Assembly: GCF_039555335.1 (NCBI RefSeq) | Contig: NC_092635.1 | Location: 54,627,755 to 54,691,754 of the forward strand | Source: Amphiura filiformis | Lineage: Eukaryota > Echinodermata > Ophiuroidea > Amphilepidida > Amphiuridae | DNA: 64,000 nucleotides | Direction: 5' to 3' | In this document: in pieces, positions 8,849 to 30,437 of the stretch | Layout: each line of letters opens with the position of its first letter | How positions within the stretch are numbered: the stretch's first letter is position 1 | Made by a program: the position numbers and the translations under genes | The notes under the pieces: model-generated | The model's input: the letters and a program-made list of their open reading frames with translations, nothing else | Databases searched by the model: none | What the model was told of the DNA's origin: nothing

Positions 8849-11800
8849 GGTGTAGGCCTGAGAAATGTGTTCTTTAGATGGTATGAACAAAAAAGGTTTA
8901 GGTCTGAGAAATGTTTTCTTTAGATGGTGTGAACAAAAAAGGTTTAGGCTTGAGAAATGTTTCCTTTAGATGGGTTGATCAAAAAAGGTGTAGGCCTGAG
9001 AAATGTTTCCTTTAGATGGTGTGAACAAAAAAGGTTTAGGCCTGATAAATGTTTTCTTTAGATGGTGTGAACAAAAAAGGTTTAGGCCTGAGAAATGTTT
9101 TCTTTAGATGGTATGAACAAAAAAGGTGTAGGTCTGAGAAATGTGTTCTTTAGATGGTATGAACAAAAAAGGTTTAGGCTTGAGAAATGTTTCCTTTAGA
9201 TGGGTTGATCAAAAAAGGTGTAGGCCTGAGAAATGTGTTCTTTAGATGGTATGAACAAAAAAGGTGTAGGTCTGAGAAATGTTTTCTTTAGATGGTGTGA
9301 ACAAAAAAGGTTTAGGCTTGAGAAATGTTTCCTTTAGATGGTTTGATCAAAAAAGGTGTAGGCCTGAGAAATGTGTTCTTTAGATGGTATAAACAAAAAA
9401 GGTGTAGGCCTGAGAAATGTTTTCTTTAGATGGTGTGAACAAAAAAGGTGTAGGCCTGAGAAATGTGTTCTTTAGATGGTGTGAACAAAAAAGGTGTAGG
9501 CCTGAGAAATGTGTTCTTTAGATGGTGTGAACAAAAAAGGTTTAGGCCTGAGAAATGTTTCCTTTAGATGGTGTGAACAAAAAAGGTGTAGGCCTGAGAA
9601 ATGTGTTCTTTAGATGGTATGAACAAAAAAGGTGTAGGCCTGATAAATGTTTTCTTCAGATGGTGTGAACAAAAAAGGTGTAGGCCTGAGAAATGTTTTC
9701 TTTAGATGGTGTGAACAAAAAAGGTTTAGGCTTGAGAAATGTTTTCTTTAGATGGTTTGATCAAAAAAGGTGTAGGCCTGAGAAATGTGTTCTTTAGATG
9801 GTATAAACAAAAAAGGTGTAGGCCTGAGAAATGTTTTCTTTAGATGGTGTGAACAAAAAAGGTGTAGGCCTGAGAAATGTGTTCTTTAGATGGTGTGAAC
9901 AAAAAAGGTTTAGGCCTGAGAAATGTGTTCTTTAGATGGTGTGAACAAAAAAGGTTTAGGCCTGAGAAATGTTTTCCTTTAGAGTGAACAAAAAAGGTGT
10001 AGGCCTGAGAAATGTGTTCTTTAGATGGTATGAACAAAAAAGGTGTAGGCCTGATAAATGTTTTCTTCAGATGGTGTGAACAAAAAAGGTGTAGGCCTGA
10101 GAAATGTTTTCTTTAGATGGTGTGAACAAAAAAGGTTTAGGCTTGAGAAATGTTTTCTTTAGATGGTGTGAACAAAAAGGTGTAGGCCTGAAAAAGTTTT
10201 CTTTAGATGGTATGAACAAAAAAGGTGTAGGCCTGAGAAATGTTTTCTTTAGATGGTGTGAACAAAAAAGGTGTAGGCCTGAGAAATGTTTTCTTTAGAT
10301 GGTGTGAACAAAAAGGTTTAGGCCTGAGAAATGTTTTCTTTAGATGGTTTGATCAAAAAGGTTTAGGCCTGAGAAATGTTTTCTTTAGATGGTGTGAACA
10401 AAAAAGGTGTAGGCCTGAGAAATGTGTTCTTTAGATGGTATGAACAAAAAAGGTGTAGGCCTGATAAATGTTTTCTTTAGATGGTGTGAACAAAAAAGGT
10501 GTAGGCCTGAGAAATGTTTTCTTTAGATGGTGTGAACAAAAAAGGTTTAGGCTTGAGAAATGTTTTCTTTAGATGGTGTGAACAAAAAAGGTGTAGGCCT
10601 GAAAAAAGTTTTTTTTAGATGGTATGAACAAAAAAGGTGTAGGCCTGAGAAATGTTTTCTTTAGATGGTGTGACCAAAAAAGTGTAGGCCTGAGAAATGT
10701 GTTCTTTAGATGGTGTGAACAAAAAAGGTTTAGGCCTGAGAAATGTTTTCTTTAGATGGTTTGAACAAAAAAGGTTTAGGCCTGAGAAATGTTTTCTTTA
10801 GATGGTGTGAACAAAAAAGGTGTAGGCCTGAGAAATGTGTTCTTTAGATGGTATGAACAAAAAAGGTGTAGGCCTGATAAATGTTTTCTTTAGATGGTGT
10901 GAACAAAAAAGGTGTAGGCCTGAGAAATGTTTTCTTTAGATGGTATGAACAAAAAAGGTGTAGGCCTGAGAAATGTTTTCTTTAGATGGTGTGACCAAAA
11001 AAGTGTAGGCCTGAGAAATGTGTTCTTTAGATGGTGTGAACAAAAAAGGTTTAGGCCTGAGAAATGTTTTCTTTAGATGGTTTGAACAAAAAAGGTTTAG
11101 GCCTGAGAAATGTTTTCTTTAGATGGTGTGAACAAAAAGGTGTAGGCCTGAGAAATGTGTTCTTTAGATGGTATGAACAAAAAAGGTGTAGGCCTGATAA
11201 ATGTTTTCTTTAGATGGTGTGAACAAAAAAGGTGTAGGCCTGAGAAATGTTTTCTTTAGATGGTGTGAACAAAAAAGGTTTAGGCTTGAGAAATGTTTTC
11301 TTTAGATGGTGTGAACAAAAAAGGTGTAGGCCTGAAAAAAGTTTTCTTTAGATGGTATGAACAAAAAAGGTGTAGGCCTGAGAAATGTTTTCTTTAGATG
11401 GTGTGAACAAAAAAGGTGTAGGCCTGAGAAATGTTTTCTTTAGATGGTGTGAACAAAAAAGGTTTAGGCCTGAGAAATGTTTTCTTTAGATGGTTTGACC
11501 AAAAAAGTGTAGGCCTGAGAAATGTTTTCTTTAGATGGTGTGAACAAAAAAGGTTTAGGCCTGAGAAATGTTTTCTTTAGATGGTATGAACAAAAAAGGT
11601 GTATACCTGAAAAATGTTTTCTTTAGATGGTGTGAACAAAAAAGGTGTAGGCCTGAGAAATGTTTTCTTTAGATGGTGTGAACAAAAAAGGTTTAGGCCT
11701 GAGAAATGTTTTCTTTAGATGGTTTGATCAAAAAAGGTTTAGGCCTGAGAAATGTTTTCTTTAGATGGTGTGAACAAAAAAGGTGTAGGCCTGAGAAATG

Positions 11801-12529
11801 TGTTCTTTAGATGGTATGAACAAAAAAGGTGTATACCTGAAAAATGTTTTCTTTAGATGGTGTGAACAAAAAAGGTGTAGGCCTGAGAAATGTTTTCTTT
11901 AGATGGTGTGAACAAAAAAGGTTTAGGCCTGAGAAATGTTTTCTTTAGATGGTTTGATCAAAAAAGGTTTAGGCCTGAGAAATGTTTTCTTTAGATGGTG
12001 TGAACAAAAAAGGTGTAGGCCTGAGAAATGTGTTCTTTAGATGGTATGAACAAAAAAGGTGTAGGCCTGAGATATGTTTCCTTTAGATGGTATGAACAAA
12101 AAAGGTGTAGGCCTGATAAATGTTTCCTTTAGATGGTGTGAACAAAAAAGGTGTAGGCCTGAGAAATGTTTCCTTTAGATGGTGTGAACAAAAAAGGTGT
12201 AGGCCTGAGAAATGTATCCTTTAGCCTAAATGGTGTGAACAAAAAAGGTTTAGGCCTGAGAAATGTTTTCTTTAGAAGATATGAACAAAAAATGTTAGTC
12301 TTTAGGCTTGAGAAATGTTTCCATTAGATGATATGAACAAAAAAGGTTTAGGCTTGAGAAATGTTTCCTTTACATGGTATGGACATGAAAGGTTTGAAAA
12401 TGTTTGAAATGTTTTCTTTAGATGATGTGAACAAAAAGGTGTAGGCCTGAGAAATTAAAAACAAGGTGTAGGCCTTAGAAATGTTTTCTTTAGATGATAT
12501 GAACAAAAAATGTGTAGGCCTGACACAAA
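8849..12529 (+). repeat. 46-bp satellite array, left arm (about 80 copies)
   Basis: The consensus unit joins GAACAAAAAAGGTGTAGGCC, TGAGAAATGTTTTCTTTAGA and TGGTGT. Variants (GTGTAGG/TTTAGG, GTGTTC/GTTTTC, GATAAATG) recur together about every 410-420 bp (near 9620, 10030, 10441, 10861). This indicates a higher-order repeat of about nine units. The unit length is not a multiple of three, so the open frames at 9840-10434 are not proteins. Confidence 0.95.
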
Positions 12530-12788
12530 GGTCCGTATGCACAAAAGAGTTGGACCGGGTCTAAAGTTAGACCTGGTCCAAGTGGAATTTAGTTCCATCA
12601 GGAATGGTCCTTTACTCTTATGTTTCCTTCCTAAAGTAGCTAGCAAATTTAAAGATTTAAATGCAGAGTTCAAAAATAATACAAGATAACTTGAATGTAA
12701 AGGAAAATGTCCTTTCTCCTGGGACTAAATTCTTCTATAGACCAGGTCTAACTTTAGACCCGGACTAACTCTTTTGTGCATACGGACC
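12530..12788. mobile_element. 259-bp MITE with 48-50-bp TIRs, left arm only
   Basis: The left TIR starts GGTCCGTATGCACAAAAGAG (12530-12579). The right TIR ends CTCTTTTGTGCATACGGACC (12741-12788). The TIRs differ at about two positions. The element sits in the inner end of the satellite array and has no counterpart in the right arm, so it inserted after the arms formed. No target duplication was identified. Confidence 0.85.
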
Positions 12789-13476
12789 ATAAGGTTTAGG
12801 CCTGAGAAATGTTTGTTTCAAACGGTATGAACAAAAAATGTGATAGCCTATTCCCTCGTGGTGCAGGTGTACCTTCCATAGACCTTTGTGGTACCACCAC
12901 TGCAGCGATTTAAGTAAAAACTGAAAAAACAGATTATTTTTGCAAGCATCATAATTATGCAAAAATCGAGCCAGCCACCTTATTAAATCAAAGCCACTTA
13001 TGGTGGTCGACACCCTTAACCATAATCCTAACTCAATTGATCCTAATCCTAACCCCTAAAAATAACCTAAAACTCTATGCCTAAACGTAAATCCTAACCC
13101 CATATAACTTTTAAAACCCTAATCCTAATCTCCTATCTTGATGCAACTTTAATAGGCCTACAAATAATACAAATAAAAATACTAAGTAAATAAAGGAATA
13201 TGTTTAAAGAAATAAACTGATTTATCAGGTCTTATGGAAAACGATCGAGATAGGCCTATCCATCATTGTAGGCCTGGAACAATAATTAGGCCTACAACTT
13301 AACACGTAACAAATGTAAAGCAACTGTAATAACCGTCAAATTAATAAAACAGATCAAAAGATAAAACAAACGAACTCAACGTTATAATGAGACCTATAAA
13401 ATTAATACAAGTGTCGGTCTAAATACGAAATATCTATAACTATATACACGGGATTATGTACAAACAATTAACAAAC
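12789..13476. repeat. Last satellite unit, telomere-like CCTAA DNA and 3' flank of the left protease gene
   Basis: 12789-12845 holds a decayed 46-bp unit. 13014-13135 is rich in CCTAATCC, CCTAACCCC and CCCTAATCC, a degenerate relative of the CCCTAA telomere repeat. Its mirror lies at 21290-21725. 13136-13476 is the 3' flank of the protease gene, also mirrored to the right of 20847. No further gene is seen. Confidence 0.6.
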
Positions 13477-14346
13477 CTACAAATTTACCAATCTTGGAGG
13501 TTTTGTCTTTGATGGTGGCCTTGAAATATCCCTCTTCGGAAACGGCGTCAGATGCTGCTCTTCAAAACATCTGCCGAGGTGAGATCTCATCTGGGCCTGA
13601 TCGAAAAAGACACCGGTTGGATCTCTTCCAAGGGCGAGTTCGATGGAGTTAGCGATCGCGAACAATCCACAATCACTGGCACCTCGCTGTCGTTGAACAT
13701 GTGGCCACGAAATAGCGGGTAAACCAGGACAAAGACACTGGATCTGATCCTGAAGGGACGATGTCAAGCCGATATCCAGATTGTCCCACAGACTCGCACA
13801 CCCATCTATAAAGGAAACTGTCACCCAATGACCGCTCCCGTTGTGGACGATTTGCACGCCTGTTCTCTTGGTGTCGCTGAAAGCTCGAAACTGATTCCAA
13901 AGCCCAAGACTCGGCATTTGAAAACCATCCATCTCAGGAAATTGTCGCTCCAGAAGAGTTTGAGCAGCTACAACATGCTCGTCCTCCAACCAGTCTCCGG
14001 TCTCCAAGCCATGTCGCTCTCGGTTGGTGAGGCTAAGAGCAGACACCCATGGCTTTGACGACGGCTCAACTTCAGAAACCATAGACCTTCGACTTCGTGA
14101 CGAACTCGGAGGAACGATCGCAACTGTAGCGGCTCTTACCTTCTTCGGTGACGGCACAGGTTGATCAAGGGATGACAGTGGGCGTTTTCTCGATGTCTTA
14201 TTTACCGCTGCTAGGACATTCGCTGTCGTCACCTTCGTAGATCGGATCCGTCGCAACACCATCCGCAACTCGCCCTTGAAAATCACCTCGTATAATATAT
14301 CTGCTGTCGGCGATTTCGAAACGAACGAACTCTTTGTAGATACCAT
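13477..14346 (-). CDS. Ulp1-like (C48 family) cysteine protease, intact left-arm copy
   Basis: 289 residues. Residues 100-270 resemble the Ulp1/SENP fold: a DWLEDEHVVAAQ segment (119-129), GHW with the presumed catalytic His173, WDN with Asp188, a QRQRGASDCG segment with oxyanion Gln (218 or 220) and nucleophile Cys226. All four positions expected for activity are present. The basic N-terminal part (RKRP at 53-56, SPKKVR at 66-71) looks like a nuclear localisation signal. Ulp1-family enzymes cleave SUMO-like modifiers; the substrate here is unknown. Such domains are also known as passengers in transposons (plant MULEs, KDZ elements). The ATG is supported by a conserved start in the right-arm copy, and a 77-nt intron with GT-AG borders lies 19 nt upstream in the 5' UTR. 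The N-terminal part is about 93% identical to the right copy. The gene lies inside the inverted repeat, so it is more likely an element gene than a host gene. Confidence 0.75.
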   Translation of the reverse strand: MVSTKSSFVSKSPTADILYEVIFKGELRMVLRRIRSTKVTTANVLAAVNKTSRKRPLSSLDQPVPSPKKVRAATVAIVPPSSSRSRRSMVSEVEPSSKPWVSALSLTNRERHGLETGDWLEDEHVVAAQTLLERQFPEMDGFQMPSLGLWNQFRAFSDTKRTGVQIVHNGSGHWVTVSFIDGCASLWDNLDIGLTSSLQDQIQCLCPGLPAISWPHVQRQRGASDCGLFAIANSIELALGRDPTGVFFDQAQMRSHLGRCFEEQHLTPFPKRDISRPPSKTKPPRLVNL

Positions 14347-14365
14347 GACGTAAACTCAGTCGAAT

Positions 14366-14442
14366 CTGAAAGGATAGAGTATCAAAGTAGATCAAAATCG
14401 GTGATAAATCACGAAAAAATCAGAGCAACTCAAAAAGCGTAC
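14366..14442 (-). other. 5' UTR intron of the left protease gene
   Basis: Read on the minus strand, the sequence is TGTTGCAG then GTACGC ... CTTTCAG then ATTCGACTGAG and, 19 nt after the acceptor, the ATG. The right-arm gene has the same donor, acceptor and 77-nt length at 19889-19965. Conservation in both arms supports real splicing; transcription itself cannot be shown from sequence. Confidence 0.6.
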
Positions 14443-14935
14443 CTGCAACAGTCAGCTTCTTTCTTCGAGTCAGGTTGCCAAGCAGGTTGTCAGGTAAACA
14501 ATACACGCGTAATTGTCAGTACGCATGTGCACCAAAAAGCCCGCGAATACGTCACAAAGCTTTCATGCACGCGCGATACGCACGTAAACCCGCGATAAAC
14601 GATGTTACGTTACGCGCACTGGTGCACTGTTCAGTTTGTGACCCACTGCATGGCCACATCACGCCTTTGCACTGTGTCATGACTAATACACATAGTACAT
14701 CCAGATTGGAGTTCTCCGGATGATGAAAGGGCAAACCGAGTAGGCCTACAAATTAATACTAGCTTAAGTTCTATAAAAGTTAAAAGATCAATGTACGAAG
14801 TACTCACATTGACATGATTGATCCAGAAAGAGAATCCGAGGACCTTATACTGTGCCAAAATTAAACAGAGAATGGTTGCGGTAATTTAGGCCTATTTCTG
14901 TTTTAGTTTTTCTTACTAGTGATACTGATGTACAC
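14443..14935. other. 5' flank of the left protease gene
   Basis: Mirrors 19490-19888: both share ACACGCGTAATTGTCAGTAC-type sequence, the AAAGCCCGCGAATACGTCAC segment and a TTTCTGGATCA-like inner motif. It should hold the promoter, but no TATA box placed convincingly relative to the first exon was seen. Short frames here overlap each other on both strands and are not supported. Confidence 0.5.
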
Positions 14936-15130
14936 TACGGGATTCTCATGAGAGTAGCAGCGCTGCTACTCTCGAGTACCCACGTCGGCCACCAGACCCT
15001 TGTGGCCCAGCAAGCCGGCTGCAACTCGCGAATACCTCGTGGCGTAGGTACTTTGAAGGTACTCCGAGTACCGACACTGGTACTCACCTGCCAGGTACTC
15101 CGCAGCTGAGTGCCGACGTGGGTACACTGG
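14936..15130. repeat. GGTACT/AGTACC-rich block, left arm
   Basis: Contains at least eight GTACC, GGTAC or GGTACTC words within 200 bp, plus CACGTCGGCCAC and a self-complementary GAGAGTAGCAGCGCTGCTACTCTC-like core (14952-14975). Its reverse complement resembles 16845-17115: both contain GGCCACAA, GGGTACTCG and GTAGCAGCG in the same order. GC content is much higher than in the flanking AT-rich DNA. Confidence 0.6.
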
Positions 15131-15273
15131 TAAGAAAATGAGGCAAGCGGGTTGCCATTTCTTATTTGTTTTTGTTGCCATATTGATTTATATTGATTAA
15201 TATGTTCTTGATTTATGTTTCTTATTTGTTTTGGGGCATTTTTAAGCGGATAAGTTAAGTAGGACTAGGCCTA

Positions 15274-15780
15274 TTAGTAAATGAGTAAATAAATACGTAA
15301 ATAAGTAAGTAAACAACTAACTAAAGGAGTAAGTAAATAAATAAGGCAATAGGTAAATAAATAAGTTTTTAAATAAATAATTACCCAACTTGAAGTAAAT
15401 GAATAAATAAATATATAAATAAATAAATAAATAAATAAGGAGATTGGTAAACAACTAATCATAAAAATAAGTAACTAATTAGGTAAATAATAACTAAATG
15501 AGTAAGTAAATAAACAAGGAAATAAGAAAATAACCAAGTAAGTAAATAAGCAACTAAATAAATAAATAAATAAATATCTAAATGAGTAAGTAAATAAATA
15601 AGTGAAGATAATAAATAAGTAAACAACTAAATAAAAAATAAATAGTGAAATAAGTAAAGCAAAAGTAAATTTATAAGTAGGCCTAGATAAATAAGTAACT
15701 AACTAAATAAATAAAATAAATAGGTAATAAATAAATGAGTAAATAACTAAAGCAAATAATGATTTAATGAATAAAAAACA
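15274..15780. repeat. Degenerate AAAT/AAGT tetranucleotide tract
   Basis: Long runs of AAATAAAT and AAGTAAAT words for about 500 bp, with interruptions. This is a microsatellite near the centre of the giant inverted repeat. The minus frame at 15274-15462 is a by-product of the tract. Confidence 0.85.
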
Positions 15781-16844
15781 TATGAACATGTCAATAAAAT
15801 ACATGATTCCAATCTTTTCTAAACATTTCTGAAAAATAATAAACTTACTAAATAATTAATTAAATAAGATAAAAATTACAAATGAAAACAACCAAGCTGA
15901 GCATCCAGCCAAGCAAACGGCTAACTAACCAACCAAGTAAACAATCAAACAAACATTAAACCGATACAAAAATCAAAGCACAAGAAAATAAATAACAATC
16001 TTCAGGTTTTGGAACAAGGCAATTTAAAACAGAAGAATCTTCACATAACAGCTCATAACATCGGTCGAAGTAAAAAAATGCTAAAACATTTTATTAACAT
16101 AACAATGATGATGGTAATTTGGTATTACCAAATTAAAGTGTTATTTTCTTAACAAAACAAAACGGAAAACAAAAGAAAAACGACGGGATTATAAATCCCG
16201 GGATAACAATAACACTGTCGCCGGCGTACGGAAAAACTGCATTGTGCAACAAGCATTATTGCATCCATCATAACAAATAAATAATTCCACTTCAACGCGT
16301 TCGTGTGCAAACCTTGTTGAACGCGTAGTCGGCCGCGTAGTTGTATCATAGGCGCGCGCGCCTTGAAGTCAATGAACTTTACGATCGAAGGATTTTGGCG
16401 ACGGAGTACCTCGCGGGTGAGTACCTTCACTCAGGCTAGCGACACTCCGGCACTTTTTGGAAGACATGAAGTACAGCAGACAGTTACATGTACAATGTGA
16501 TTTTCTCATTTATAATTAGGATTACGTCATTGCCAGAATGCCAGAGCTTGTTTCATTTGTTCATTAGAATGATTGACATCGGTGGGCGGAGCAAATACTC
16601 TAAAAATGTGATTCTCTAATAAATTATAGGTCACTAGGTCAATTCGGACCGTCTCTTCCTCAGATCTCTATGTAGGACTCTATGGTATCTTCTCATTACA
16701 CGTTCGTAGTAAGACTTGGCCGGCGATGACGCCTGTCTTCAACCGCTGTATAGCACGGTATAGGCAGTTTGCAGAGAGTGTCGCTTCTCTACCTTTATTT
16801 TCTCTGCTTCACTGCTACTTCACTGCTGACACATGGGTACACCA
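15781..16844. other. Centre of the inverted repeat, no gene recognised
   Basis: AT-rich up to 16150, then mixed. Open frames at 16149-16430 (minus) and 16726-16950 (plus) have no known domain. No transposase motif (DDE, tyrosine recombinase, Rep/helicase) was seen here. A GAGTACC pair lies near 16400-16425. Confidence 0.5.
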
Positions 16845-17115
16845 TGTGTGTGGTTACTGTGCAGGTACTTCCGCTGAAGGGCCATTGAAGTACCCCCGAC
16901 TATGGTGTGCCTATGAGTCACCTACTCGGTACATCGCAGTTGACTCTTAGGTGACGCATGGCGGAGTATCGATGTGAGTACTTTGCTACGGGGGTATCTA
17001 CAGTATGGTGGCCGACACTGGTACTTTGGTGTAGTACCGACGTCGGCCACAAAGGGATTGGGTACTCGGTAGTAGCAGCGGTAGTAGCCGCGAAGTAACA
17101 TTGCAGCAGAGGTAC
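16845..17115. repeat. GGTACT-rich block, right arm
   Basis: Inverted counterpart of 14936-15130. It has many GTAC-containing words (AGGTACTTCC, GGTACATC, GAGTACTTTG, TGGTACTTTGG, GGGTACTCGG, GGTACTACG), GACGTCGGCCACAAAGGG and GTAGCAGCGG. The adjoining GGAATC...GTAGTGTA at 17117-17130 also matches the left flank in reverse complement. No gene. Confidence 0.6.
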
Positions 17116-17679
17116 TACGTCGCCAGGAATCTTGTAGTGTAATGTCAAGAATCTAGGCCTAATTCTGCGTTTTCAAACCGGTATATAGGCCTACAGTATA
17201 CATTTGATTCAGTATGACGAAAATTGTCAACAATGATGGCCAGCATCCCGCGGGGGATGCACGGCAAGAGGAAAGATGTTCCAACCCGCATTGGCTATGC
17301 CACTGGATATCAGCAGTCGGATGATTACGTGTTCATCTTCGACAGCAGCAGCTATATCAGCAGTAGAGATCTATATATTTCATTGACTGCAATAGTGATA
17401 TCAGCAGTGGAGCTTCTTTATCTTCATCATCATGGCGATCTATAAAGGTGACTTTGGTCTTCAACGGGCAAGATGTATACGCTGCAAAATTTACTCGACT
17501 TTCTCTTTTATATCTGCTGTAGTAACAGTAGTTCAGCAGTACAAACTTTATCAATCGCCTATGAATAGTATAGACTTGAAAGGCTTCATCAATATCAATA
17601 ACAGTGAATAAAAAGCTTCTACATTTAAGCCTATATCAGCAGTATACTTATTCGTCATAAATGACAGCAGTATTATACT

Positions 17680-18060
17680 GCTGTCATTTATAGGCCTATA
17701 CCTACTTCATCATGCAGTATCAGAAGTAGATAGCTATATATCAGTACTAAGCAGTAGATAGCTTTTTCAACAGTAGCGACATCAGCAGTAGATAGCAGCT
17801 CCTTCATCAGTAGTGATATCAGCAGTAGATAGCTACGGTACTTCATCAATAGTGACATCAGCAGTAGATAGCTACGGTACTTCATCAATAGCGATATCAG
17901 CAGTAGATAGCTTCTTCATCAGTAATGATATCAGCAGCAGATAGCTATATACTTCATCAGTAGTGATATCAGCAGTAGATAGCTCCTTCATCAGTAATGA
18001 TCAGCAGCAGATAGATTCTTCATCAGTAGCAATATAGATAACTACTTCAAAGGTCAAAGG
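17680..18060. repeat. ~35-bp minisatellite with core CAGTAGATAGC
   Basis: About nine imperfect units of GATATCAGCAGTAGATAGCT followed by ACTTCATCAGTAGT. Earlier scattered copies reach back to 17300. The reverse complement contains GCTATCTACTG, the core shared with arrays at 6790-8575 and 31370-33580. It has no counterpart in the left arm. Confidence 0.8.
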
Positions 18061-18125
18061 CTTGCCGATATCAGTGGACAACATACTGAAGTAAATGCCA
18101 AATAATTACAGAATTTTTAAGACAG

Positions 18126-19325
18126 ATGGTCCAGAAGAAGCCTGCAGCAACATCACCACTATCATCAGTGATGCTATATGGAGATCTATGCATACCAGCA
18201 AAGCTCGTTATCAAGAAGACTGGAGACAAGATATGGTTTGATGACCACTGCAAACGAGCAGCAATCAAGAAGCGCCTTATTCAGAAGAAGCCTGCAGCAA
18301 CATCACCACTATCATCAGTGATGCTATATGGAGATCTATGCATACCAGCAAAGCTCGTTATCAAGAAGACTGGAGACAAGATATGGTTTGATGACCACTG
18401 CAAACGAGCAGCAATCAAGAAGCGCCTTATTCAGGAAGCTAAAAAAAGAGTAACACCAAATAATACAAGGATAAGTTTACAAAAGCTAGAAAAGAGTATA
18501 ATCGCACAGAGAAGGTAGCCAGAAAGAGCTATAACAGCAAGTTGTGAAAAGAACTCTCAGATGACAGCCTCAGCAGCAAGAAATGGCGGAATACTGTTAA
18601 CATCCTAGCTGGTAAGCCCACCAAAGTCGATATACCAGTGCTTAAGGATGGCTGTCACGTCTACACTACATCAAAAGACAAAGCTGAAAAATTCGGCCAA
18701 ACCTTTGCCGCTAAATGGCAACTTGCCATGCAGTGCAGAAGAATCTGCTCCTGAAGTTCAGCATTCAGCAACGTGCTCAATGGAAAAGATAGCCTTCAAG
18801 GTAAAATAATGTTAGTAACTTCTCAGGAATCTGCAAACAGATAAAGCTACTGGTCCTGACGAAATCCCTGCAAGAGTCCTGAAGGAATGCAGCGCAGAAC
18901 TTGCAAGACCACTCAGCCTGCTGTTTGAGCTTTGCTTCTGCAATGGAGTTTTCCCAGGCCAATAGAAGATTACATCTGCCATCCCTATTCACAAGAGAGA
19001 TTCGAAGTCTAATCCATCTACCGCCCAATCTCTCTTCTCTGCATCATCAACAAGGTCATGGAAGCTGTTGTACAGAACCAACTTCAGAAGTACCTCCTTG
19101 GAAACCAACTGATTTCAGATAGTCAGTTTGGACAGCTTGTCCATGCCTTGCCATGCTCTCAAAGTAGGCACCTACCAGCTTCTAGAACCATATCTACTGG
19201 CAGGACCTTCATCCACACCGCAGTTCACGTTTGGAATAGCCAATACCAGATGGAGTAGTCGGAGACGTAACTGACAACGGCACACCATCCTTCAAGAGCA
19301 GAGTGCGTATGCATGTGTCTGATGC
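18126..19325 (+). pseudogene. Decayed LINE (non-LTR) reverse transcriptase fragment
   Basis: Frame-shifted pieces read as a non-LTR retrotransposon. A KATGPDEIPARVLKE block (near 18840-18885) is the RT domain start of LINEs. A PISLLCIINKVMEAV-like block follows near 19030-19060 in another frame, then a C-terminal IHTAVHVWNSQ segment near 19210-19250. At least three frame changes and internal loss show it is dead. An exact 150-bp duplication lies at its 5' end. It interrupts the right half of the giant inverted repeat and has no copy in the left arm. The clade (CR1, Jockey or RTE-like) is not decided. Confidence 0.7.
18132..18431 (+). repeat. Exact 150-bp tandem duplication
   Basis: 18132-18281 and 18282-18431 appear identical base for base. 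Because 150 is a multiple of three, the reading frame 18126-18518 stays open and its protein contains the same 50 residues twice. Identity this high inside a decayed LINE implies a very recent event or an assembly duplication. Confidence 0.9.
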
Positions 19326-19888: not shown

Positions 19889-19965
19889 GTACGCTTTTTT
19901 AGTTTCTGTGCATTTTGAGTGATTTATCACCGATTTTAATCTAGTTTTATACTTTATCCTTTCAG
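19889..19965 (+). other. 5' UTR intron of the right protease gene
   Basis: GTTGCAG then GTACGC at 19889 and CTTTCAG at 19965, followed by ATTCGACTGAG and the ATG at 19985. It is 77 nt, the same as in the left copy. Confidence 0.6.
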
Positions 19966-19984
19966 ATTCGACTGAGTTTACGTC

Positions 19985-20847
19985 ATGGTATCTACAAAGA
20001 GTTCGTTCGTTTCGAAATCGCCGGCAGCAGATATATTATACGAGGTGATTTTCAAGGGCGAGTTGCGGATGGTGTTGCGACGGATCCGATCCACGAAGGT
20101 GACGACAGCGAATGTCCTTACAGGGGTAAAGGATGCATCGAGAAAACGCCCACTGTCATCCCTTGATCAACCTGCCGTGCCGTCACCGAAGAAGGTAAGA
20201 GCCGCTACAGTTGTGATCGTTCCTCCCTGTTCGTCACGAAGTCGAAGGCCTATGGTTTCTGAAGTTGAGCCGTCGTCAAAGCCATGGGTGTCTGCTCTTA
20301 GCCTCACCAACCGAGAGCGACATGGCTTGGAGACCGGAGACTGGTTGGAGGACGAGCATGTTGTAGCTGCTCAAACTCTTCTGGAGCGACAATTTCCTGA
20401 GATGGATGATTTTCAAATGCCGTGTCTTGGGCTTTGGAATCAGTTTCGAGCTTTCAGCGACACCAAGGGACCAGGCGTGCAAATCGTCCACAACGGGAGC
20501 GGTCATTGGGTGACAGTTTCTTACTGTGTGCGAGTCTGTGGGACAATCTGGATATCGGCATGACATCGTCCCTTCAGGATCAGGTCCAGTGTCTTTGTCC
20601 TGGTCTACCCGCTATTTCGTGGCCTTATGTTCAACGACAGCGAGGTGCCAGTGATTGTGGATTGTTCGCGATCGCTAACTCCATCGAACTCGCCCTTGGA
20701 AGAGATCCAACCGGTGTCTTTTTCGATCAGGCCCAGATGAGATCTCACCTCGGCAGATGTTTTGAAGAGCAGCATCTGACGCCGTTTCCGAAGAAAGATG
20801 TTTCAAAGCCACCATCGAAGAAACCTCCGAGATTGGTAAATTTGTAG
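19985..20847 (+). pseudogene. Ulp1-like protease, right-arm copy with frameshift
   Basis: The start, basic N-terminus and fold match the left copy, with substitutions such as TGVKDA for AAVNKT. After GHWVTVS (about 20520) a net 7-bp loss relative to the left copy shifts the frame, so the first frame ends at 20563. The second half continues in another frame to 20847 and keeps the WDN aspartate, the QRQRGASDCG segment and the C-terminus PPRLVNL. The separated halves remove the catalytic His from the Cys. A product would be a non-protease fragment unless a sequencing indel is involved. The 7-bp difference sits where the left copy reads TTTATAGATGGG. Confidence 0.8.
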
Positions 20848-21818
20848 GTTTGCTAAATTGTTGTGTTTAAATTTGTACATATTTCCGTGTATATAGTTAT
20901 AGAGAGTTCGTGTTTAGGCCGACACTTGTTTTTTTTTAAATCGGTCCACAGTTCGTTCGTAGTTTTTTAAATTTTTTTAATGGTTGGTTATTACAGTTGC
21001 GTTGCATTAATTAATGCTGTTTTTAGGCCTAATAACTATACCAGGCCTACAATATAGGCCTATATATTTCGCTTCCCATTAGACCTAATATCTTATTTCT
21101 AAGCAAATATCCCCTCCTTTTTTATTTAGACCTACTTATTATAATCATAGGCCTATTCACTATTTGTAGGCCTATTTGCCGGCAAAAACTGTTTGTGCCA
21201 AACGGTTAAAACTAAAACCCCAGTTAAAACCGCGGTTTTTTTTTTCACCTGCGACAAAAATCTGCCAACCCTGCTTCCAAGATATTAGAATTAGGGTAAG
21301 GATTTACGTTTAGGTATAGAGTTTCAGGTAATTATTTGTAGGGTATAGGGTTAATACAGATTGAGTTAGGATTCTGGTTAAGGGTGGCTTTAATAAGGTG
21401 GCTGGTTATAGGCCTATTCAATATTGTAGGCCTATTAAAATCACGTTAAGATCAAGAGACTTTAGAAGTCCTGCCACCACTTGTAATATATTAGGATTAT
21501 AGGATTTAGGCCTACGTTTAGGCATATAGTTCCAGGTTATTTATAGGGTTAGGGTTATGCTAATTATAGGGTTAGGATTTACGTTTAGGCATAATAGTTC
21601 CAGGTTATTTATAGGGTTAGGTAATAAAAGGGTTAGGATTTACGTTTAGGCATATAGTTCCAGGTTATATAGGGTTAGAATTTACGTTTCGGCATAGAGA
21701 TCCAGGTTATTTATATAGGGTTGAGTCAGGATTCTGGTTTGAAAAAACAATCGGGTTCTCAGTTTTGATTTAATTTGATACAGTTGTATCACAAGGGTCC
21801 AAGGAAAGTATACATCAA
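20848..21818. repeat. 3' flank of the right protease gene with TTAGG-rich repeats
   Basis: Mirrors 12846-13476. From 21290 a ~45-bp unit with GGATTTACGTTTAGGCAT and AGTTCCAGGTTATTTATAGG is repeated about five times with GGGTTAGGG junctions. It appears only once in the left arm, so the right arm has expanded it. AGGCCTA words are dense at 21020-21180. No gene. Confidence 0.6.
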
Positions 21819-23365
21819 AAGGAAACATTTCTCATGTCTAAACCTTTTTGTTCATACCATATCTAAAGGAAACATTTCTCAGGCCTAAACCTTTCTTTGT
21901 TCACACCATCTAAAGGAAACATTTCTCAGGCCTAAACCTTTTTTGTTCACACCATCTAAAGAAAACATTTCTCAGGCCTACACCTTTTTGTTCATACCAT
22001 CTAAAGGAAACATTTCTCAGGCTAAACCGTTTTTGTTCACACCATCTAAAGGAAACATTTCTCAGGCCTAAACCGTTTTTGTTCATGCCATCTAAAGGAA
22101 ACCTTTCTCAGGTCTAAACCATTTTTGTTCATACCATCTAAAGAAAACATTTCTCAAGCCTAAACCTTTTTTGTTCATACCATCTAAAGGAAACATTTCT
22201 CAGGCTAAACCTTTTTTGTTCATACCATCTAAAGGAAACATTTCTCAGGCTAAACCGTTTTTGTTCACACCATCTAAAGGAAACATTTCTCAGGCCTAAA
22301 CCGTTTTTGTTCATGCCATCTAAAGGAAACCTTTCTCAGGTCTAAACCGTTTTTGTTCATACCATCTAAAGAAAACATTTCTCAAGCCTAAACCTTTTTT
22401 GTTCATACCATCTAAAGGAAACATTTCTCAGGCTAAACCTTTTTGTTCATACCATCTAAAGGAAACATTTCTCAGGCTAAACCGTTTTTGTTCACACCAT
22501 CTAAAGGAAACATTTCTCAGGCCTAAACCGTTTTTGTTCATGCCATCTAAAGGAAACCTTTCTCAGGCTAAACCGTTTTTGTTCATACCATCTAAAGGAA
22601 ACATTTCTCAGGTCTAAACCGTTTTTGTTCATACCATCTAAAGAAAACATTTCTCAAGCCTAAACCTTTTTTGTTCATACCATCTAAAGGAAACATTTCT
22701 CAGGCCTAAACCTTTCTTTGTTCACACCATCTAAAGGAAACATTTCTCAGGCCTAAACCTTTTTTGTTCATACCATCTAAAGAAAACATTTCTCAGGCCT
22801 AAACCTTTTTTGTTCATACCATCTAAAGAAAACATTTCTCAGGCCTAAACCGTTTTTGTTCACACCATCTAAAGGAAACATTTCTCAGGCCTACACCTTC
22901 TTTGTTCATACCATCTAAAGGAAACATTTCTCAGGCCTAAACCTTTTTTGTTCACACCATCTAAAGAAAACATTTCTCAGGCCTAAACCTTTTTTGTTCA
23001 TACCATCTAAAGGAAACATTTCTCAGGCTAAACCGTTTTTGTTCACACCATCTAAAGGAAACATTTCTCAGGCCTAAACCGTTTTTGTTCATGCCATCTA
23101 AAGGAAACCTTTCTCAGGCTAAACCGTTTTTGTTCATACCATCTAAAGGAAACATTTCTCAGGTCTAAACCGTTTTTGTTCATACCATCTAAAGAAAACA
23201 TTTCTCAAGCCTAAACCTTTTTGTTCATACCATCTAAAGGAAACATTTCTCAGGTCTAAACCTTTTTTGTTCACACCATCTAAAGGAAACATTTCTTAGA
23301 CCTAAACCTTTTTTGTTCATACCATCTAAAGAAAACATTTCTCAGGCCTACACCTTTTTTGTTCA
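21819..23365 (-). repeat. 46-bp satellite array, right arm
   Basis: Same unit as 8849-12529 in reverse orientation, about 34 copies. Local multi-unit blocks with GTTCATGCC and CAAGCC variants recur near 22090, 22325, 22530 and 23070. The array stops at GTTCA (23365), where a Helitron begins, and resumes at 30121. Confidence 0.95.
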
Positions 23366-23996
23366 TCTTACTATAAATAGGGGAATGTTGTATCTATGTA
23401 TCTTGCATGTATATAAAGGCTCCGTCAGTTTTGATCCAAATGTCGCCAAATTCATACGGGAGATCGGGGAATATACCGAGACGGTAATGCACAAATTTGG
23501 TTGAAAACGGTCAAGAATTGGCTGCAAAAACAGTGAAAATATGGGTAAAAACGGGTTTTTTTATATGAAAATCGGTTGACAGCCTACGCGTCACTGCAGC
23601 TGGCCGGCAGCGCGTCGGCGCCGCGTGCGTAATGCGCACTACGCCAATGCTCGCGTAAACGGCGCAGAGCAACGCGACTTGCGAGCCAGAGACCAGTGGA
23701 CATGATAATACGGAAAGAAGGAAAAATAAAGGACAAAAAGGTACATGGACGGGTCACGGGATTATGATAACGGGTGAACACGTCCGCAGACACGCTATGA
23801 GAGGACGTAATAATACGGGAAACACAACAAGAAGCGGTACTATAAAGAAAAATTAAATTAAAATGAGGACAAAAAAGGTACGAGTAATAGGCCAACGGGT
23901 TAAAGTAAATAAATGATGTACCTTTTCAATAATTCTACCTGTTCAGTAATTCTTCCTGTTATAGTGAACACTCCCATTTACTCACTCACCCGCTAG
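23366..23996 (+). mobile_element. Helitron 1, non-autonomous, 3' hairpin deleted
   Basis: Begins TCTTACTATAAATAGGGG directly after an A and ends CCGCTAG. The end lacks the hairpin that its relatives have (compare CTCACTCACCCGCTAG here with the hairpin-bearing end at 29050-29085). The body matches 28210-29040 (GGCTCCGTCAGTTTCGATCC and following). No Rep/helicase is encoded. Helitrons have 5' TC, 3' CTRR and insert between A and T. Confidence 0.8.
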
Positions 23997-24272
23997 TCTT
24001 ACTATAAATAGGGAAATGTTGTATGTATGTATCTATGTATCTATGTATCTACATTTAAAATAGACTTGGTGATTTATTAAAGCATTATTTACAATATTGT
24101 TTCATGCAAGCCAGCCGAAGCCGACCTACACTCGTCAGAATATGCTTATCACTGGAAACTGATTTCTATTTCTAGCGGAATGCTCACGCCGCGAAGTGGC
24201 GACGGCGAGCGCGAAGCGCGATCACCGAGCGTAAAACGCGCGGAGCTAGTGCTAGATCTTTAGACAGTTTAA

Positions 24273-25378
24273 CGCGGCTGTGTACTCTAGCCATTGTTTC
24301 TTTCTCAAAATTAAGTTTTTATGATATGTTTGTACCTTGTTATGTTTTTTATAAATACAAGGAATGAAAATCCAGATTTGTAAACTCCAACTGCAATATT
24401 TTAAGGATTTTATTTCACTATTCCACTCGTGTTTGAAATTGAAAAGGAAAGAAAATCTTTGTTGTACCAGCAAGGTACACGCGCGCAACAACTCATCGCG
24501 TTGCGTATCGCGCAATTTGTTAACGCACAAATACGCGACGCATACGCGACACTTATCTGCGTGCGCGGCGCATCTTATGGAAACACCACGGAAGCACTGA
24601 TTTCACAAAAACCTAGTGGTCAAATGGCTCCGTTTTAGCTGATAAAATGTGGGTTTTTCAAGTTCTTTCCCCGATTTAAATATCAAGTTATGAATGGATT
24701 TCGCTCAAACTTCTCAAGGGGTTGTGGATTTACCCGATGTTCACGTAATATAAGTTACAAAACGAAAACTGTCGCATTCTCCTGTGAGATTCGATGAAAG
24801 TGCAAAATGTGACCACTTTAAACTTCAACGGCCATTATTTCAATGTTCATTTTCTCGGTAAAATGACGATTTAGGTACACGATAACTCAATAAATACAGC
24901 ATCTATAGGTAAGCAAATATGATCATCGTAAAAAGCATGATCGACTCCCGAACCGGTTTTCTCATTTTTTTACCTTTTGGTCTATTACCGATTTTGGGCA
25001 TCATTTTGTGCAAATAGGCGTTTTGAATTTTAAAAAGTTCATTTTGATGCCTTATATGGTCAATATCTCAAAAAATAAGGCCAATATCAAAAAAATAAAA
25101 AACCGTTTTTGGAATGGAGCCTCAAGATTGAGCTAAAAACAAAATAAAATATTTTGGAAAGAGTGTTTTTTGTTATGATGTACCTAACAAATATTGCCAA
25201 AAACTCACTTTTTGTGATTTTCTTCAAAATTGTTGTTTTTATCCCAAATCTGTATTTATATTAAGATTTATTGATGTCTTGCCTTCATAAAAATGTATAC
25301 TTTTTTATATGTTTTGCGCGAATAATTACAAAGTTATTACACTTTTACTACATGCATGTCTGAGAGTACACAGCCACC
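24273..25378. mobile_element. 1.1-kb DNA transposon at a TTAA site
   Basis: TIRs CGCGGCTGTGTACTCT and AGAGTACACAGCCACC, flanked on both sides by TTAA (24269-24272 and 25379-25382). The other palindrome arm (27555-27580) shows the unoccupied site with a single TTAA. TTAA duplication fits piggyBac- or Kolobok-like elements. The interior frames (24252-24638) have no transposase motif, so it is non-autonomous. Confidence 0.85.
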
Positions 25379-25414
25379 TTAATTGGCATACATTTACGGT
25401 CAAAAATGGTTACA

Positions 25415-27324
25415 TCTATATATAAATAAAAGGAAAGTTGCCCATCTTGTGCGCGAGTGTTCTCCGAATTGCCTAGACTTTCGGCTTTGATTTAGTGGTG
25501 TATTGATCGGGTACATATTGCCATTTTTCCATCGGACAAAAAAAAAAAAAAAATTGGTGGTAACTAAGAGAATAACATAAAAAACTGTCGTGTTGCTATG
25601 CAAAATCGTTCGCAGTGGCATTGTGGGTAATAAGGACACTGTGAACCGCGTAATAATATTTCCATTAAAAAAACCATACGCAGAGCAACATTATTGCCCC
25701 GTTTTCTGCCAACTGCGAGGTGGCCAAGAAATGATTCAGGCTATCTAGATGCACAACAGCGCATAATTTAATAATGATCTTACGAGCTTTTTGTCCCTCA
25801 GATCTACGCGCCCCATTTACCGCCACTGCATCAAGGTTGGCAGCCAAGAAATTAAGGCTACGACGCGTGAATCAGTCTTTGCGTCATCACTAAAGTAACG
25901 TAGGAAACAGTGGTCTGGTAGTCTAGAGTGGTGATAGTGCCTGCGTGGAGACCCGGGGTGCAGACAGTCAGTGTACAATTTCATTATTTATTCTAGGCCT
26001 ATGAATCGTCCGGAGATTGAGGAACGGGAAATGCATTGCACTTTATTTGGTTGAAAACGGTCAACAAATATGGTTAAAACCGGGATTTTTTTCCCGGGCC
26101 TTTTTATTGTCAAAACTCAGTGGTAGCGCGTACCGTAACTAACTGGCAGCGCGTTGGTGTTAGTGCGTTGGCGTACAAGGGATGTGACTCGCACGCACGG
26201 GGCGCATATGCATTTCCGTGCCAGAGAAATAGAAAAGAAAAGAAAGTAGGACAAAACTGAAAAGGTAGGCCTACTATGGATGGGTAAATAAATCTATATA
26301 AATAAAATATGCATAGGCCAACTTTCGGTGCCAGAAAAGGAGAGACAGTAGGACAAAAAAGGGGTACTGGGTTTGGTTAAGAGATTACCAAAATGATAAA
26401 AATCGTAAGGATACGGGAGGAAGGAAGGAACCTAAAAAATGAAAGAATAAATATATAAATAAATAAATAATTCATGAAAAAAGGAAGCTAAAATAATGAG
26501 AACAGAATTAAATACAAACGGGAAATCACAAGCTATAACTTAATAAGCAGGAAATATGAAAAATGGGAACAAAATAATAGAAAAAAAACTTAAAGCTAAA
26601 AGGACAAATGTAAGTAAGGGTAGATTTATAAAATAATGCATGGGAACGGGGTTCAATAAATAAATAACATGGAAACGTAAAATCACAAGCTAAGCAGCAT
26701 ATATCTATTGGAACAAAATAGATTTATGTAGAAGAAACTGAAAAGAAAGAAAGAATAAAATGAATAAAAAAAAAAGAAAAGAAAGGAAGACAAAACTGAA
26801 GATACGGGTATTATACGGGTTATTAAATGAAACGGGAGCAAAATAAAGAAGGAAAGAAAGAAACTAATCAGGAAACGTAAGAAAAAAAGCTAAAATTAAA
26901 AACTAATCAGGAAATATAAGAAAAATGAAGCCAAAATAATGAAAACAGAATTAAATAAATAACATGGAAACGGGAAATCACAAGTTAAGCAGCATAAAAA
27001 GAAGCTAAAAGGGAAACGTAAGAAAGGACAGATTTAGAAAATAATGGGAATGCGGTTAGGCCTAAATAAATAAATAACATGGAAACGGAAAATCCCAAGC
27101 TAAATAGCAATTTTTTAATGGGAACAAACTAGACCCATGTAGAAGAAACTGAAAAGAAAGAAAGAAAGAAAGAAGCTAAATGGAAATGCAAGAAGGAACA
27201 GGTTTAGAAAAATACAATTTACCTTTTCAATGATTCTACCTTTTCAGTAATTCCTCCTGTTTTAGTGATCGCTCCCATTTACTCATCTAGCGGGGACCCG
27301 CGCGAAGCGCGGGTATCCCGCTAG
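25415..27324 (+). mobile_element. Helitron inside the palindrome's left arm
   Basis: 5' TCTATATATAAATAAAAGGA follows an A (25414). 3' end is the hairpin CCGCGCGAAGCGCGG and TATCCCGCTAG, followed by T (27325). The right arm around 27540 reads through the empty site (TGTTATGTAACC in reverse complement). The interior is purine-rich repeats of AAAGAAAG and GGAAACG words, with no Rep/helicase. Confidence 0.85.
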
Positions 27325-27703
27325 TAACATAAAATAAGCAGTTCAAGTTCATGAAGACAGTCAATACTTGATATATTGATCAGTTGTAGTTGATCAAGAG
27401 ATGCTTCTTCCTGTGTCTACAAGTGAATGAGCTAATAAACACTTGTAGACACAGGAAGAAGCATCTCTTGATCAACTACAACTGATCAATATATCAAGTA
27501 TTGACTGTCTTCATGAACTTGAACTGCTTATATTATGTTATGTAACCATTTTGACCGTAAATGTATGCCAATTAAACTGTCTAAAGATCTAGCACTAGCT
27601 CCGCGCGTTTTACGCTCGGTGATCGCGCTTCGCGCTCGCCGTCGCCACTTCGCGGCGTGAGCATTCCGCTAGAAATAGAAATCAGTTTCCAGTGATAAGC
27701 ATA

Positions 27704-28008
27704 GACATACCACCTAGACCTATTACTGCCCATCCTTTACCACAGCTGGAGGTGAAGCCCCGTATCCAAGGTGATATTGACGGATTGACGGGGTTACTAG
27801 GCGCGGAGAAATATCGCATACATGTTTGACGCGCTCGTTTGCGTGATTACTGCACCGTTATCGCCGCGTCAAATGCAACATGTTCCATAGACGCGAACAT
27901 GTCTGCTTGTTTGCGTCCGGGTATGCGTCCTTGTCAAATTCGTTGCTAAGCAGTGTCTGCTTCACTACGCGAGTCAAAGTTATTGGTCTAGGTTCTCGTT
28001 TGTCTGGG
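27704..28008. mobile_element. 305-bp element with 12-bp target duplication
   Basis: Flanked by GTGATAAGCATA at 27692-27703 and 28009-28020. The left palindrome arm has this 12-mer once, so the duplication is real. Ends show imperfect inverted repeats sharing CCTAGACC and GGTCTAGG about 10-17 bp in. No poly-A or simple-repeat tail. A 12-bp duplication is at or beyond the upper range for MULE-like elements, so the superfamily is uncertain. Confidence 0.75.
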
Positions 28009-29085
28009 GTGATAAGCATATTCTGACGAGTGTAGGTCGGCTTCGGCTGGCTTGCATGAAACAATATTGTAAATAATGCTTTAATAAATCACCAAGTCTA
28101 TTTTAAATGTATTCCAGCTCCCTTCTTGGTTGAGCACTTTACTGTGGATGATTTACCTTACTTGGATTTATTTATTTATCTATGTATCTATGTATCTATG
28201 TATGTATCGCTATAAAGGCTCCGTCAGTTTCGATCCAAATGTCGCCAAATTCATACGGGAGATCGAGGAATATACGGGAACGTGTTTAAACTTTATTTGG
28301 TTGAAAACGGTCAAGAATTAGCTCCAAAAACAGTGAAAATATGGGTAAAAACGGGGTTTTTGTTATGAAAATCGGTTACCAGCCTACGCGTCACTGCAGC
28401 TGGCCGGCAGCGCGTCGGCGCCGCGTGCGTAATGCGGGCGTAATGCGCATTGCGCAAATGCGCGCGTAAACGGCGCAGAGCCACACGACTTGCGAGCCAG
28501 AGATCAGTGGGCATGATAATACGGAAAGAAGGAAAAATAAAGGACAAAAAGGTACATGGACGGGTCACGGGATACCGGGTGAACACGTCCGCAGACACGC
28601 TATGAGAGGACGTAATAAATACGGGAAAAGATGTGTGTTGTAGGCCTATAAACAACATGAAGCGGTACTATAAAGAAAAATTAAATTAACATGGGGACAA
28701 AAAGGTACGAGTAATTAGGCCAACGGGTTAAAGTAACTAAATGAAACGGGAACGAAACAAAGACGGAAAGAAACTAATCAGGAATTGTAAGAAAAAAAGA
28801 AGCTAAAATAATGAGAACAGAACTTAAGTAAAAAACATGGAAACGGGAAATCACAAACAGCAAACAAAAAAAAGATGCTAAAAGGGATATGTAAGAAAGA
28901 ACAGATTTAGAAAATAATGATTCAATGATTCTACCTGTTCAGTATTTCTTCCTGTTATAGTGAACGCTCCCATTAGAAAATAATGATTCAATGATTCTAC
29001 CTGTTCAGTATTTCTTCCTGTTATAGTGAACGCTCCCATTTACTCATCTAGCGGGGACCCGCGCGAAGCGCGGGTATCCCGCTAG

Positions 29086-30120
29086 TCTATAACAAATTAC
29101 CGAGTTGCAAAACTTTTCGGGATAAAAACTCGAACGGTGGTGATGCAACTGCAAATTTCACTCTTGCAAACCGAATCATTCACCGAGTTACGCTGCATAT
29201 TCACCTCATTTTTAAAAATCTTAGTGATTAAAGTCTAAAAATGAGCAGAAATAGTTTTTAAAATATCCAGGGACCTCAAAATAGTGGGCATCAGTTACCA
29301 TGTCCGCCTAACAACTACATCGCGTCAAACAAAAAAATATCAACACGCCGCGTCAAACAACAAAACGCGTATCATTTAGTTCGCGACATTGCGTCAACAC
29401 GCTGCCTCTAAAGCAAGTGGGAATATTAAGCACGGGAAAAAATCAAAATGAGTGAGGGGAGTGCATGGGTGCCATGGGTTCAGGTTTGTTCATACTACCG
29501 CCGCATTTGCGATGCGTTGCTTTGCCATGTGGTGCGTTGCCGCACTGCAAACTACTGCATTGCGATATCGCAATGAAGTTAAATACATTTTAACTTGGAA
29601 ATGCGACGAGTTGCGTTGAGTTGCGGCAAAAAGTAATCGATATGCCTATATCGGCATCGCAAAGCAACGCATCGCAAATGCGGTGGTAGTATGAACGAAC
29701 CTGTAGTGATATTATTTAACAATCCGCGATGCATGGGTGACCATCAAACTATAGCCGTTGTGAATTTTTTGAGCATAGGACCCCGTGATAGGACCTACTT
29801 ATAATACTGACTTAAAAATTGCACATACGTTTCATATTCACAAAAAGAAGTACCCGGTACTAAAACCATGATACTAGGGAAGAGGCAGATCGGAGAAGAG
29901 GGATGTGAGCTAGGGGGGGGGGGGGAAGAACGGGAGGATAGGGGACAACATGGGGAGGGGGCACAAAGAAGTTGATTAAAATGAATTAAATGAAACGACT
30001 GATCAATCGGTGATAAAATTGGTAAAGTTGGTAAAATTGTTCCCAATAAAACTCGGAGGGTGGTGATGCATTTGGAAAATTGCATTTATTTACGAACCGC
30101 GAAAGACGGGTGACCGCTAG
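29086..30120 (+). mobile_element. Helitron 3 (different family)
   Basis: Starts TCTATAACAAATTACCGAG immediately after the CTAG of Helitron 2. Ends ACGGGTGACCGCTAG before T (30121). Near both ends it repeats an AAACTCG...GGTGGTGATGCA segment (29127-29148, 30050-30070). It holds a MITE at 29481-29703. No coding capacity. Confidence 0.7.
29481..29703. mobile_element. MITE with ~45-bp TIRs inside Helitron 3
   Basis: The left end starts CAGGTTTGTTCATACTACC and contains GCGATGCGTTGCTTTGCC. The right end contains GGCATCGCAAAGCAACGC and ends GAACGAACCTG. 223 bp, no open frame. The CAGG ends suggest a hAT-like origin, but no 8-bp duplication is visible. Confidence 0.75.
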
Positions 30121-30199
30121 TACCATCTAAAAGAAACATTTCTCAGACCTAAACCTTTTTTGTTCATACCATCTAAAAGAAACATTTCTCAGACCTAAA
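30121..30199 (-). repeat. Displaced end of the right satellite array
   Basis: Starts TACCATCTAAAAGAAACATT and contains just under two 46-bp units. Joining 23365 (…GTTCA) to 30121 (TACCATC…) restores a normal unit exactly, so the 6755 bp between are a clean insertion. Confidence 0.9.
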
Positions 30200-30437
30200 C
30201 TCTTTACTGGGGTATATGAAAAAGAATAGAGTTTTTCTTCAGATGCCAAAATCTCAATTTTGACGGATGAAGCGACAATGCGGGCTCCGGATCACCCATC
30301 TTTGTTTTCGGTGCCAATATGTAGGCCTACATCAAAATAGTATGTAGGCTTAAATCATAGATGTAGGCCTTCTGAGTATTTCAATATGTTTTCAAAACCC
30401 CTTTGTCACTTTCTTTCAAGCTTTAGTAGGCCTAGTA

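Follow-up and report, generated by a model that had tools for sequence, protein, structure and literature searches.

Is the large inverted repeat that occupies about 21 kb of contig NC_092635.1 of the ophiuroid Amphiura filiformis a single mobile element, or have its two halves come to lie opposite each other by some other route? The original prediction, made from the window alone (the whole analysed stretch of 64,000 nucleotides, to whose first letter all coordinates below refer), was that two mirror-image arms, each carrying a 46-bp satellite, telomere-like CCTAA DNA, an Ulp1-like protease gene and a GGTACT block, form one foldback-type transposable element. Our results indicate that the inverted arms are real. 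As for their origin, we favour a decayed, non-autonomous, foldback-like DNA transposon that comprises both arms as one element, and give this explanation a probability of roughly 0.4.

Extent and colinearity of the arms

The arms consist of the following parts.

8844-12850, plus strand: left outer satellite of 46-bp units, broken by a miniature inverted-repeat transposable element (MITE)-like piece
12851-13476, minus strand: left spacer, with a CCTAA-rich (telomere-like) stretch at 13011-13127 (self-comparison)
13477-14346, minus strand: left Ulp1-like protease open reading frame (ORF), 289 amino acids (aa), open
14347-14840, minus strand: left 5' leader and upstream region; arm similarity strong to 14574 and patchy onward to approximately 14840
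14364-14441, minus strand: probable left intron of the 5' untranslated region (UTR), GT...TTTCAG, ends approximate (sequence signals only)
19510-19984, plus strand: right upstream region and 5' leader with a probable intron (arm comparison, sequence signals)
19985-20847, plus strand: right Ulp1-like gene, frameshifted, in two ORF pieces
20848-21812, plus strand: right spacer, with TTAGG-rich (telomere-like) stretches at 21294-21710 (self-comparison)
21813-23365, minus strand: right outer satellite, inner part
30121-30207, minus strand: right outer satellite, last units and outer end

Comparison of the window with itself revealed a strong inverted match of 13397-14574 to 20938-19758 (1193 columns, 93.1%, 1724 bits). 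Four weaker colinear blocks, each scored against 300 dinucleotide shuffles, exceeded all of them: 13128-13396 versus 20939-21291 (score 102, shuffle maximum 35), 12850-13010 versus 21387-21812 (47, maximum 28), 14575-14932 versus 19400-19757 (47, maximum 30) and an additional inner block (34, maximum 28). The CCTAA-rich blocks are also alike (13011-13127 versus 21294-21386 and 21544-21621, 82.7-84.0% in the self-comparison), and the 46-bp satellite lies on the plus strand in the left arm (8849-12455) and on the minus strand in the right one (21813-23366), its consensus 12-mers being confined within the window to both arm arrays and to 30.0-30.5 kb. Since the strong match, the weaker blocks, the CCTAA blocks and the satellite all keep their order in opposite orientation, the arms are colinear inverted relatives, and the predicted mirror image is borne out. 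The left arm extends from 8844 to approximately 14840 and the right one from approximately 19510 to 30207. In both, a CCTAA-rich spacer follows the 46-bp satellite, and next come the Ulp1-like gene, which has a probable 5' UTR intron, and a CpG-rich upstream block. When later insertions are subtracted, roughly 5.7 kb remain for the left arm, 3.9 kb for the right arm and roughly 1 kb for the centre, from which the protease genes read outward.

The arm similarity stops at 8844 and 30207, which replace the predicted boundaries of 8849 and 30199, and both ends lie within the same A-rich stretch preceding the GG of the satellite. The adjoining flanks (8577-8843 and 30208-31340) are unrelated, with an inverted score of 20 (159 of 200 shuffles as high) and a direct score of 21 (121 of 200); farther outside, the inverted score of 25 was matched by 36 of 60 shuffles. 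As the outer flanks are unrelated in either orientation, the similarity does not run on seamlessly into unique DNA; such a continuation had been named beforehand as something that would refute the idea of one element.

The arms diverge by about 5 to 30%, very unevenly along their length, and the insertions nested in them differ. The later insertions in the locus are as follows.

12530-12788, no strand assigned: MITE-like piece with inverted ends of 69 columns (89.9%; self-comparison)
14933-17139, no strand assigned: CACTA-like element, ends CACTAC...GTAGTG, TA on both sides, rich in GGTACT/AGTACC near both ends
18041-19505, plus strand: long interspersed nuclear element (LINE)-like remnant with poly-A at 19497-19505 and an approximate left end; weak RVT_1 match in 19013-19255, below the Pfam cut-off
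23366-30120, plus strand: Helitron-like DNA with TC...CTAG ends, between A and T of the satellite

The satellite resumes beyond the MITE-like piece, up to approximately 12850, and beyond the Helitron-like DNA, up to 30207; when the flanks of the latter are joined, a satellite unit is restored exactly between A and T. From its sequence, the Helitron-like DNA probably consists of two elements that meet at 29085/29086 and used the same site between A and T. The first of them contains several internal inverted and direct repeats. The predicted GGTACT module was rejected as a part of the arms: the hexamers occur on both strands in both blocks, and 14 of the 31 GGTACT/AGTACC hexamers of the window sit in the later insertion 14933-17139, which we take to be CACTA-like. 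No transposase was seen in that element, and no convincing target duplication was found for the LINE-like remnant.

The protease genes and their relatives

Both arms contain an Ulp1-like ORF, as predicted, but only the left one is open, the right copy being split into two ORFs by a 7-base gap. GT...TTTCAG signals lie directly upstream of the ATG in both copies, and the 5' UTR intron that had been proposed is probable in both on the strength of these signals. Between the copies (286 codon pairs, one of them a stop, four gapped codons having been dropped) the synonymous divergence dS was 0.050 and the nonsynonymous divergence dN 0.033, a ratio of 0.65. Differences between the arms were counted at 10 of 205 synonymous sites, at about 22 of 228 5' positions and, in the 3' flank, at 95 of 320 aligned positions, the last value being inflated by forced alignment of the indel-rich spacer; synonymous divergence differed from that of the 3' flank (p 1.5e-13) and not significantly from that of the 5' positions (p 0.067). 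Gene conversion between the arms, centred on the protease gene, would be the simplest reading.

A search of 5.8 billion proteins returned 727 candidates, 8 of them relatives, of which four are close (54-58% identical, 283-290 aa). A profile search gave 42 relatives among 5547 candidates, tick and Hydra proteins included. The AlphaFold model of the left protease (mean predicted local distance difference test score, pLDDT, 76.9) had 9 Foldseek matches in the PDB at E 0.001 or better, the best being yeast Ulp1 (2hl8, E 2.6e-6, template modelling score 0.44 by query and 0.57 by target). At the sequence level, PDB matches were weak, with a best E of 0.0062 to the ULP_PROTEASE protein 6ups, or 0.00015 with a five-row profile. 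H173, D188, Q220 and C226, presumably the catalytic residues, are invariant in 9 aligned rows, while in a 19-row alignment H, Q and C remain invariant and D varies. An Ulp1 fold together with catalytic His, Asp, Gln and Cys is expected in the transposon-linked Ulp1 (C48) family of animals, and the model and the alignments indicate that the window protein possesses both. What counts against its membership in C48 is that the Pfam C48 model gave no match to it, only a sub-threshold RickCE_cat match being reported.

Among the 20 of the 42 relatives that were scanned with Pfam, 10 were above the cut-off for PHD, 5 above that for C48, and one (P0033) contained SWIM. The C-terminal PHD finger, which is frequent in the family though not universal, was not found in the window ORF or in its four close relatives, all of which end before it. 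By eye, relatives P0020 and P0027 seem to start with the last part of a Gypsy-type integrase, including a GPY/F-like stretch; Pfam's sole match there was to SH3_Tf2-1, in P0020, and lay below threshold. P0016 looks SWIM-like by eye, and Pfam reports no SWIM there. A tree was built from 40 of 43 rows, P0040 and P0041 being dropped for want of the motif and one more, apparently P0038, being shorter than 110 aa. In this tree a single clade (100/99) unites the window protein with P0001-P0004. Outside it, the SWIM-zinc-finger protein P0033 comes closest, with weak support (81/41), and neither the SWIM-bearing rows nor the integrase-bearing ones form a group.

Ginger1 and Mutator transposases that carry Ulp1 and PHD domains are described in the available part of PMC2836005. 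Because relatives of the window protein carry SWIM or Gypsy-integrase-like parts, as do these published transposases, a transposon origin of the protease, as a member of an animal Ulp1(-PHD) family, is well supported, and the mobile-element origin that had been proposed for the locus is supported as well.

One insertion, two insertions or a duplication

Arrays sharing the core GCTATCTACTG lie on both sides of the arms and between them.

6840-8576, plus strand: flanking array left of the left arm, 24 exact cores at 6848-8510
17300-18040, minus strand: centre array, 6 exact cores at 17752-17983
31340-33580, plus strand: flanking array right of the right arm, 39 exact cores at 31520-33553

The window contains 69 occurrences of the core, against none in 20 shuffles. 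The left and right arrays align directly (score 134, shuffle maximum 33) and not in inverted orientation (score 26, 14 of 20 shuffles as high), whereas the centre array, when inverted, aligns with the right array (score 97, shuffle maximum 44) and weakly with the left one (score 44, 1 of 100 shuffles as high). This plus, minus, plus arrangement fits the insertion of two units with inversion of the centre, and it also fits an element that bears a related array. Many units of the arrays contain the hairpin GCTATCTACTGAWGATAGC, and a small MITE-like piece with the inverted ends AGAGGCCGTCAGC...GCTGACGGCCTCT is located at 6931-7080, within the left flanking array.

The 46-bp satellites were compared over 75 left and 35 right units, intervals outside 40-50 bases having been dropped (6 of 81 on the left, 0 of 35 on the right). 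The mean difference between units was 0.076 in the left arm, 0.113 in the right arm and 0.123 when units of different arms were compared, and 85% of the units had their nearest neighbour in their own arm, versus 56% expected if the units were mixed. The satellite of each arm is largely homogenised independently.

We favour the single foldback-like element because the arms are colinear and contain tandem repeats, both outer ends lie at a satellite edge next to unrelated flanks, the protease is transposon-linked, and the gene copies are more alike than their 3' flanks, a pattern which conversion between the arms would produce. Several results weigh against it. Satellite units show no positional match between the arms (Spearman -0.01, p 0.95). 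At the outer ends, neither a 9-bp duplication (at most 2 mismatches) nor an 8-bp one (at most 1 mismatch) was found, only the 4-base TTTA. Membership in the foldback elements requires a target duplication, which an old or rearranged copy could have lost, and also several dispersed copies of the same paired structure, and we therefore do not assign the locus as a member. No MULE (Mutator-like element), PHD-finger or Gypsy-integrase-like transposase domain was detected by Pfam in 70 of the 95 ORFs of at least 60 aa in the locus; the missing transposase and target duplication had already been conceded in the original prediction. The paired arrangement was seen at one locus only. Moreover, the GCTATCTACTG arrays outside the arms match the inverted centre, which would not be expected of a single element and lowers our confidence in a single foldback. 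What stands of the predicted element with long inverted ends is the pair of bounded, colinear arms with tandem-repeat outer domains; its status as one element is much less secure, as the GGTACT symmetry is lost and the arrays fit two insertions about as well.

A realistic possibility is that two copies of one asymmetric unit (upstream block, gene, spacer and satellite; roughly 5 kb) were inserted oppositely in a GCTATCTACTG domain, the centre of which was later flipped by recombination. The same-core arrays on the left, in the centre and on the right, with their 24, 6 and 39 exact cores, speak for this explanation, as do the direct alignment of the outer arrays, the inverted alignment of the central one and the arm-by-arm divergence of the satellites, but more events are required (two opposed insertions and an inversion), the LINE-like remnant obscures the right unit's inner end, and a target duplication was found for neither unit: the left arm taken separately shows only a weak TAGCCACAT/TGGCCACAT pair at 8828/14651, with a 7-mer inside, and the right arm only a weak GTATATGAA/GTAAATGAA match at 30212/19588. 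It is rather unlikely that the arms are a palindrome left by inverted segmental duplication, via template switching or break-induced replication and without transposition, of a locus that belonged to the host or to a dead transposon. The lack of a target duplication, the single locus seen and the intron retained in both copies, which are therefore not retrocopies, would agree with such an event, but each outer end coincides with the edge of the satellite, the flanks differ, and the divergence along the arms is very uneven.

The openness of the left ORF and the nearly equal length of four relatives with 54-58% identity might suggest that the host has domesticated the left gene as a SUMO-protease gene, the right one being a pseudogene and the repeats incidental; this seems very unlikely, as the protease family is transposon-linked and the dN/dS of 0.65 gives no sign of strong constraint, though one copy is broken. 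Inverted repeats and satellites are difficult to assemble, but the divergence of about 5 to 30% between the arms, together with the differences in their nested insertions, shows that a single sequence was not assembled twice. An assembly artefact is thus scarcely credible; a wrong join inside an array is possible.

The wider locus and known elements

Elsewhere in the window, a host gene region (45983-50494) contains RIO-kinase exons at 46.0-48.1 kb (Rio2_N match) and, downstream of them, an acidic ORF. Two UBZ-like fingers can be made out by eye in a DNA-polymerase-kappa-like exon (57097-58095, E 6.3e-13 to 7nv0). The minus strand of 61390-63998 forms a GC-rich retroelement-like block with only a sub-threshold Phage_int_SAM_1 match, whose ORFs we take, by eye, to resemble a DIRS-type element. 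Self-palindromes at 27325-27540 (95%), 52994-53156 (98%), 55787-55953 (87%) and 45034-45151 (86%) are probably further MITE-like pieces. The Pfam scans, which outside the locus covered 56 of 74 ORFs of at least 75 aa, also returned the chance-like matches Taq-exonuc, Imm58, PAP2, zf-primase, Mab-21_C and SUB1_ProdP9. No RNA family reached its gathering score in the window.

Searches for further copies gave 108 pattern stretches in genome contigs and 84 and 9 in viral contigs, with 0 confirmed copies in each case; the exact array patterns were found 0 times in each of the other sequence collections, and phages gave no match. Absence from these collections says little, since they comprise viruses and prokaryotes. 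In the literature searched we found nothing joining foldback elements, Ulp1 and transposition, nothing joining Ulp1, inverted and tandem repeats, transposable elements and sea urchin, and nothing joining Ulp1, transposon, PHD finger and invertebrate (Repbase Reports were not covered, so novelty is not implied). A Helitron origin of the arms, considered as their inner similarity starts with TCGG in both, was dropped because the outer ends are without CTRR.

Drosophila FB and sea-urchin TU are foldback elements and, to our knowledge, the arms of foldback elements besides Tetris are without coding sequence. The locus resembles FB, TU and Tetris in its long inverted arms, outer tandem-repeat domain, inner domain and variable centre, tandem repeats inside long inverted arms being a foldback hallmark according to the available part of PMC4079207. 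According to the same part, the arms of Tetris of Drosophila virilis reach 1,735 bp, conserved ORFs are absent and the target duplications measure 8-9 bp (8-10 bp), whereas the locus has a protease gene per arm and no target duplication was found. As far as Ginger1 is described in the available part of PMC2836005, the likeness lies in the Ulp1 protease domain, which is C-terminal in the Ginger1 transposase and accompanied by PHD in some; the locus differs in lacking an integrase-type transposase, ends with terminal inverted repeats (TIRs) of 40-270 bp and, at its end sequences, the CCGG/CCGT duplication, and its protease stands alone without PHD. Mutator-like elements of animals and plants in the same part of that source also combine an Ulp1 domain with a transposon, and P0033, placed as tree neighbour with weak support, bears SWIM, but neither a MULE transposase nor a 9-bp duplication was found at the locus. 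Rehavkus shares a minisatellite near one end and, in the available part of PMC6446971, differs in its PHD-finger transposase, TIRs of 26-400 bp, 9-bp target duplication and a minisatellite that precedes the 3' TIR.

If the arms are one foldback-like element, a transposase supplied in trans would have acted on the arm ends and moved the unit by cut-and-paste, and the tandem repeats could have offered additional binding sites, a role also proposed for those of Galileo and Tetris. The SUMO/ubiquitin-like protease may have shielded the machinery of transposition or made repair easier, the array lengths may have changed by unequal exchange, and conversion between the arms could have kept the gene region alike. 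The mobile unit is probably dead, its open left ORF notwithstanding. We consider it improbable, and offer it as a speculation, that the locus represents a foldback lineage with a protease in each arm, in which the genes are kept alike by arm-to-arm conversion, the satellites drift, and the arms flip the centre as a local inversion switch in a satellite domain.

Should two insertions or a palindrome have produced the arms, the locus would neatly illustrate how inverted copies exchange with one another, a matter of limited wider interest. A single element, on the other hand, would connect the foldback elements with the SUMO/ubiquitin-like proteases that are fused to Ginger1 and Mutator transposases, and would suggest that such a protease can travel alone on a non-autonomous element and that the arms of transposons can seed satellites.

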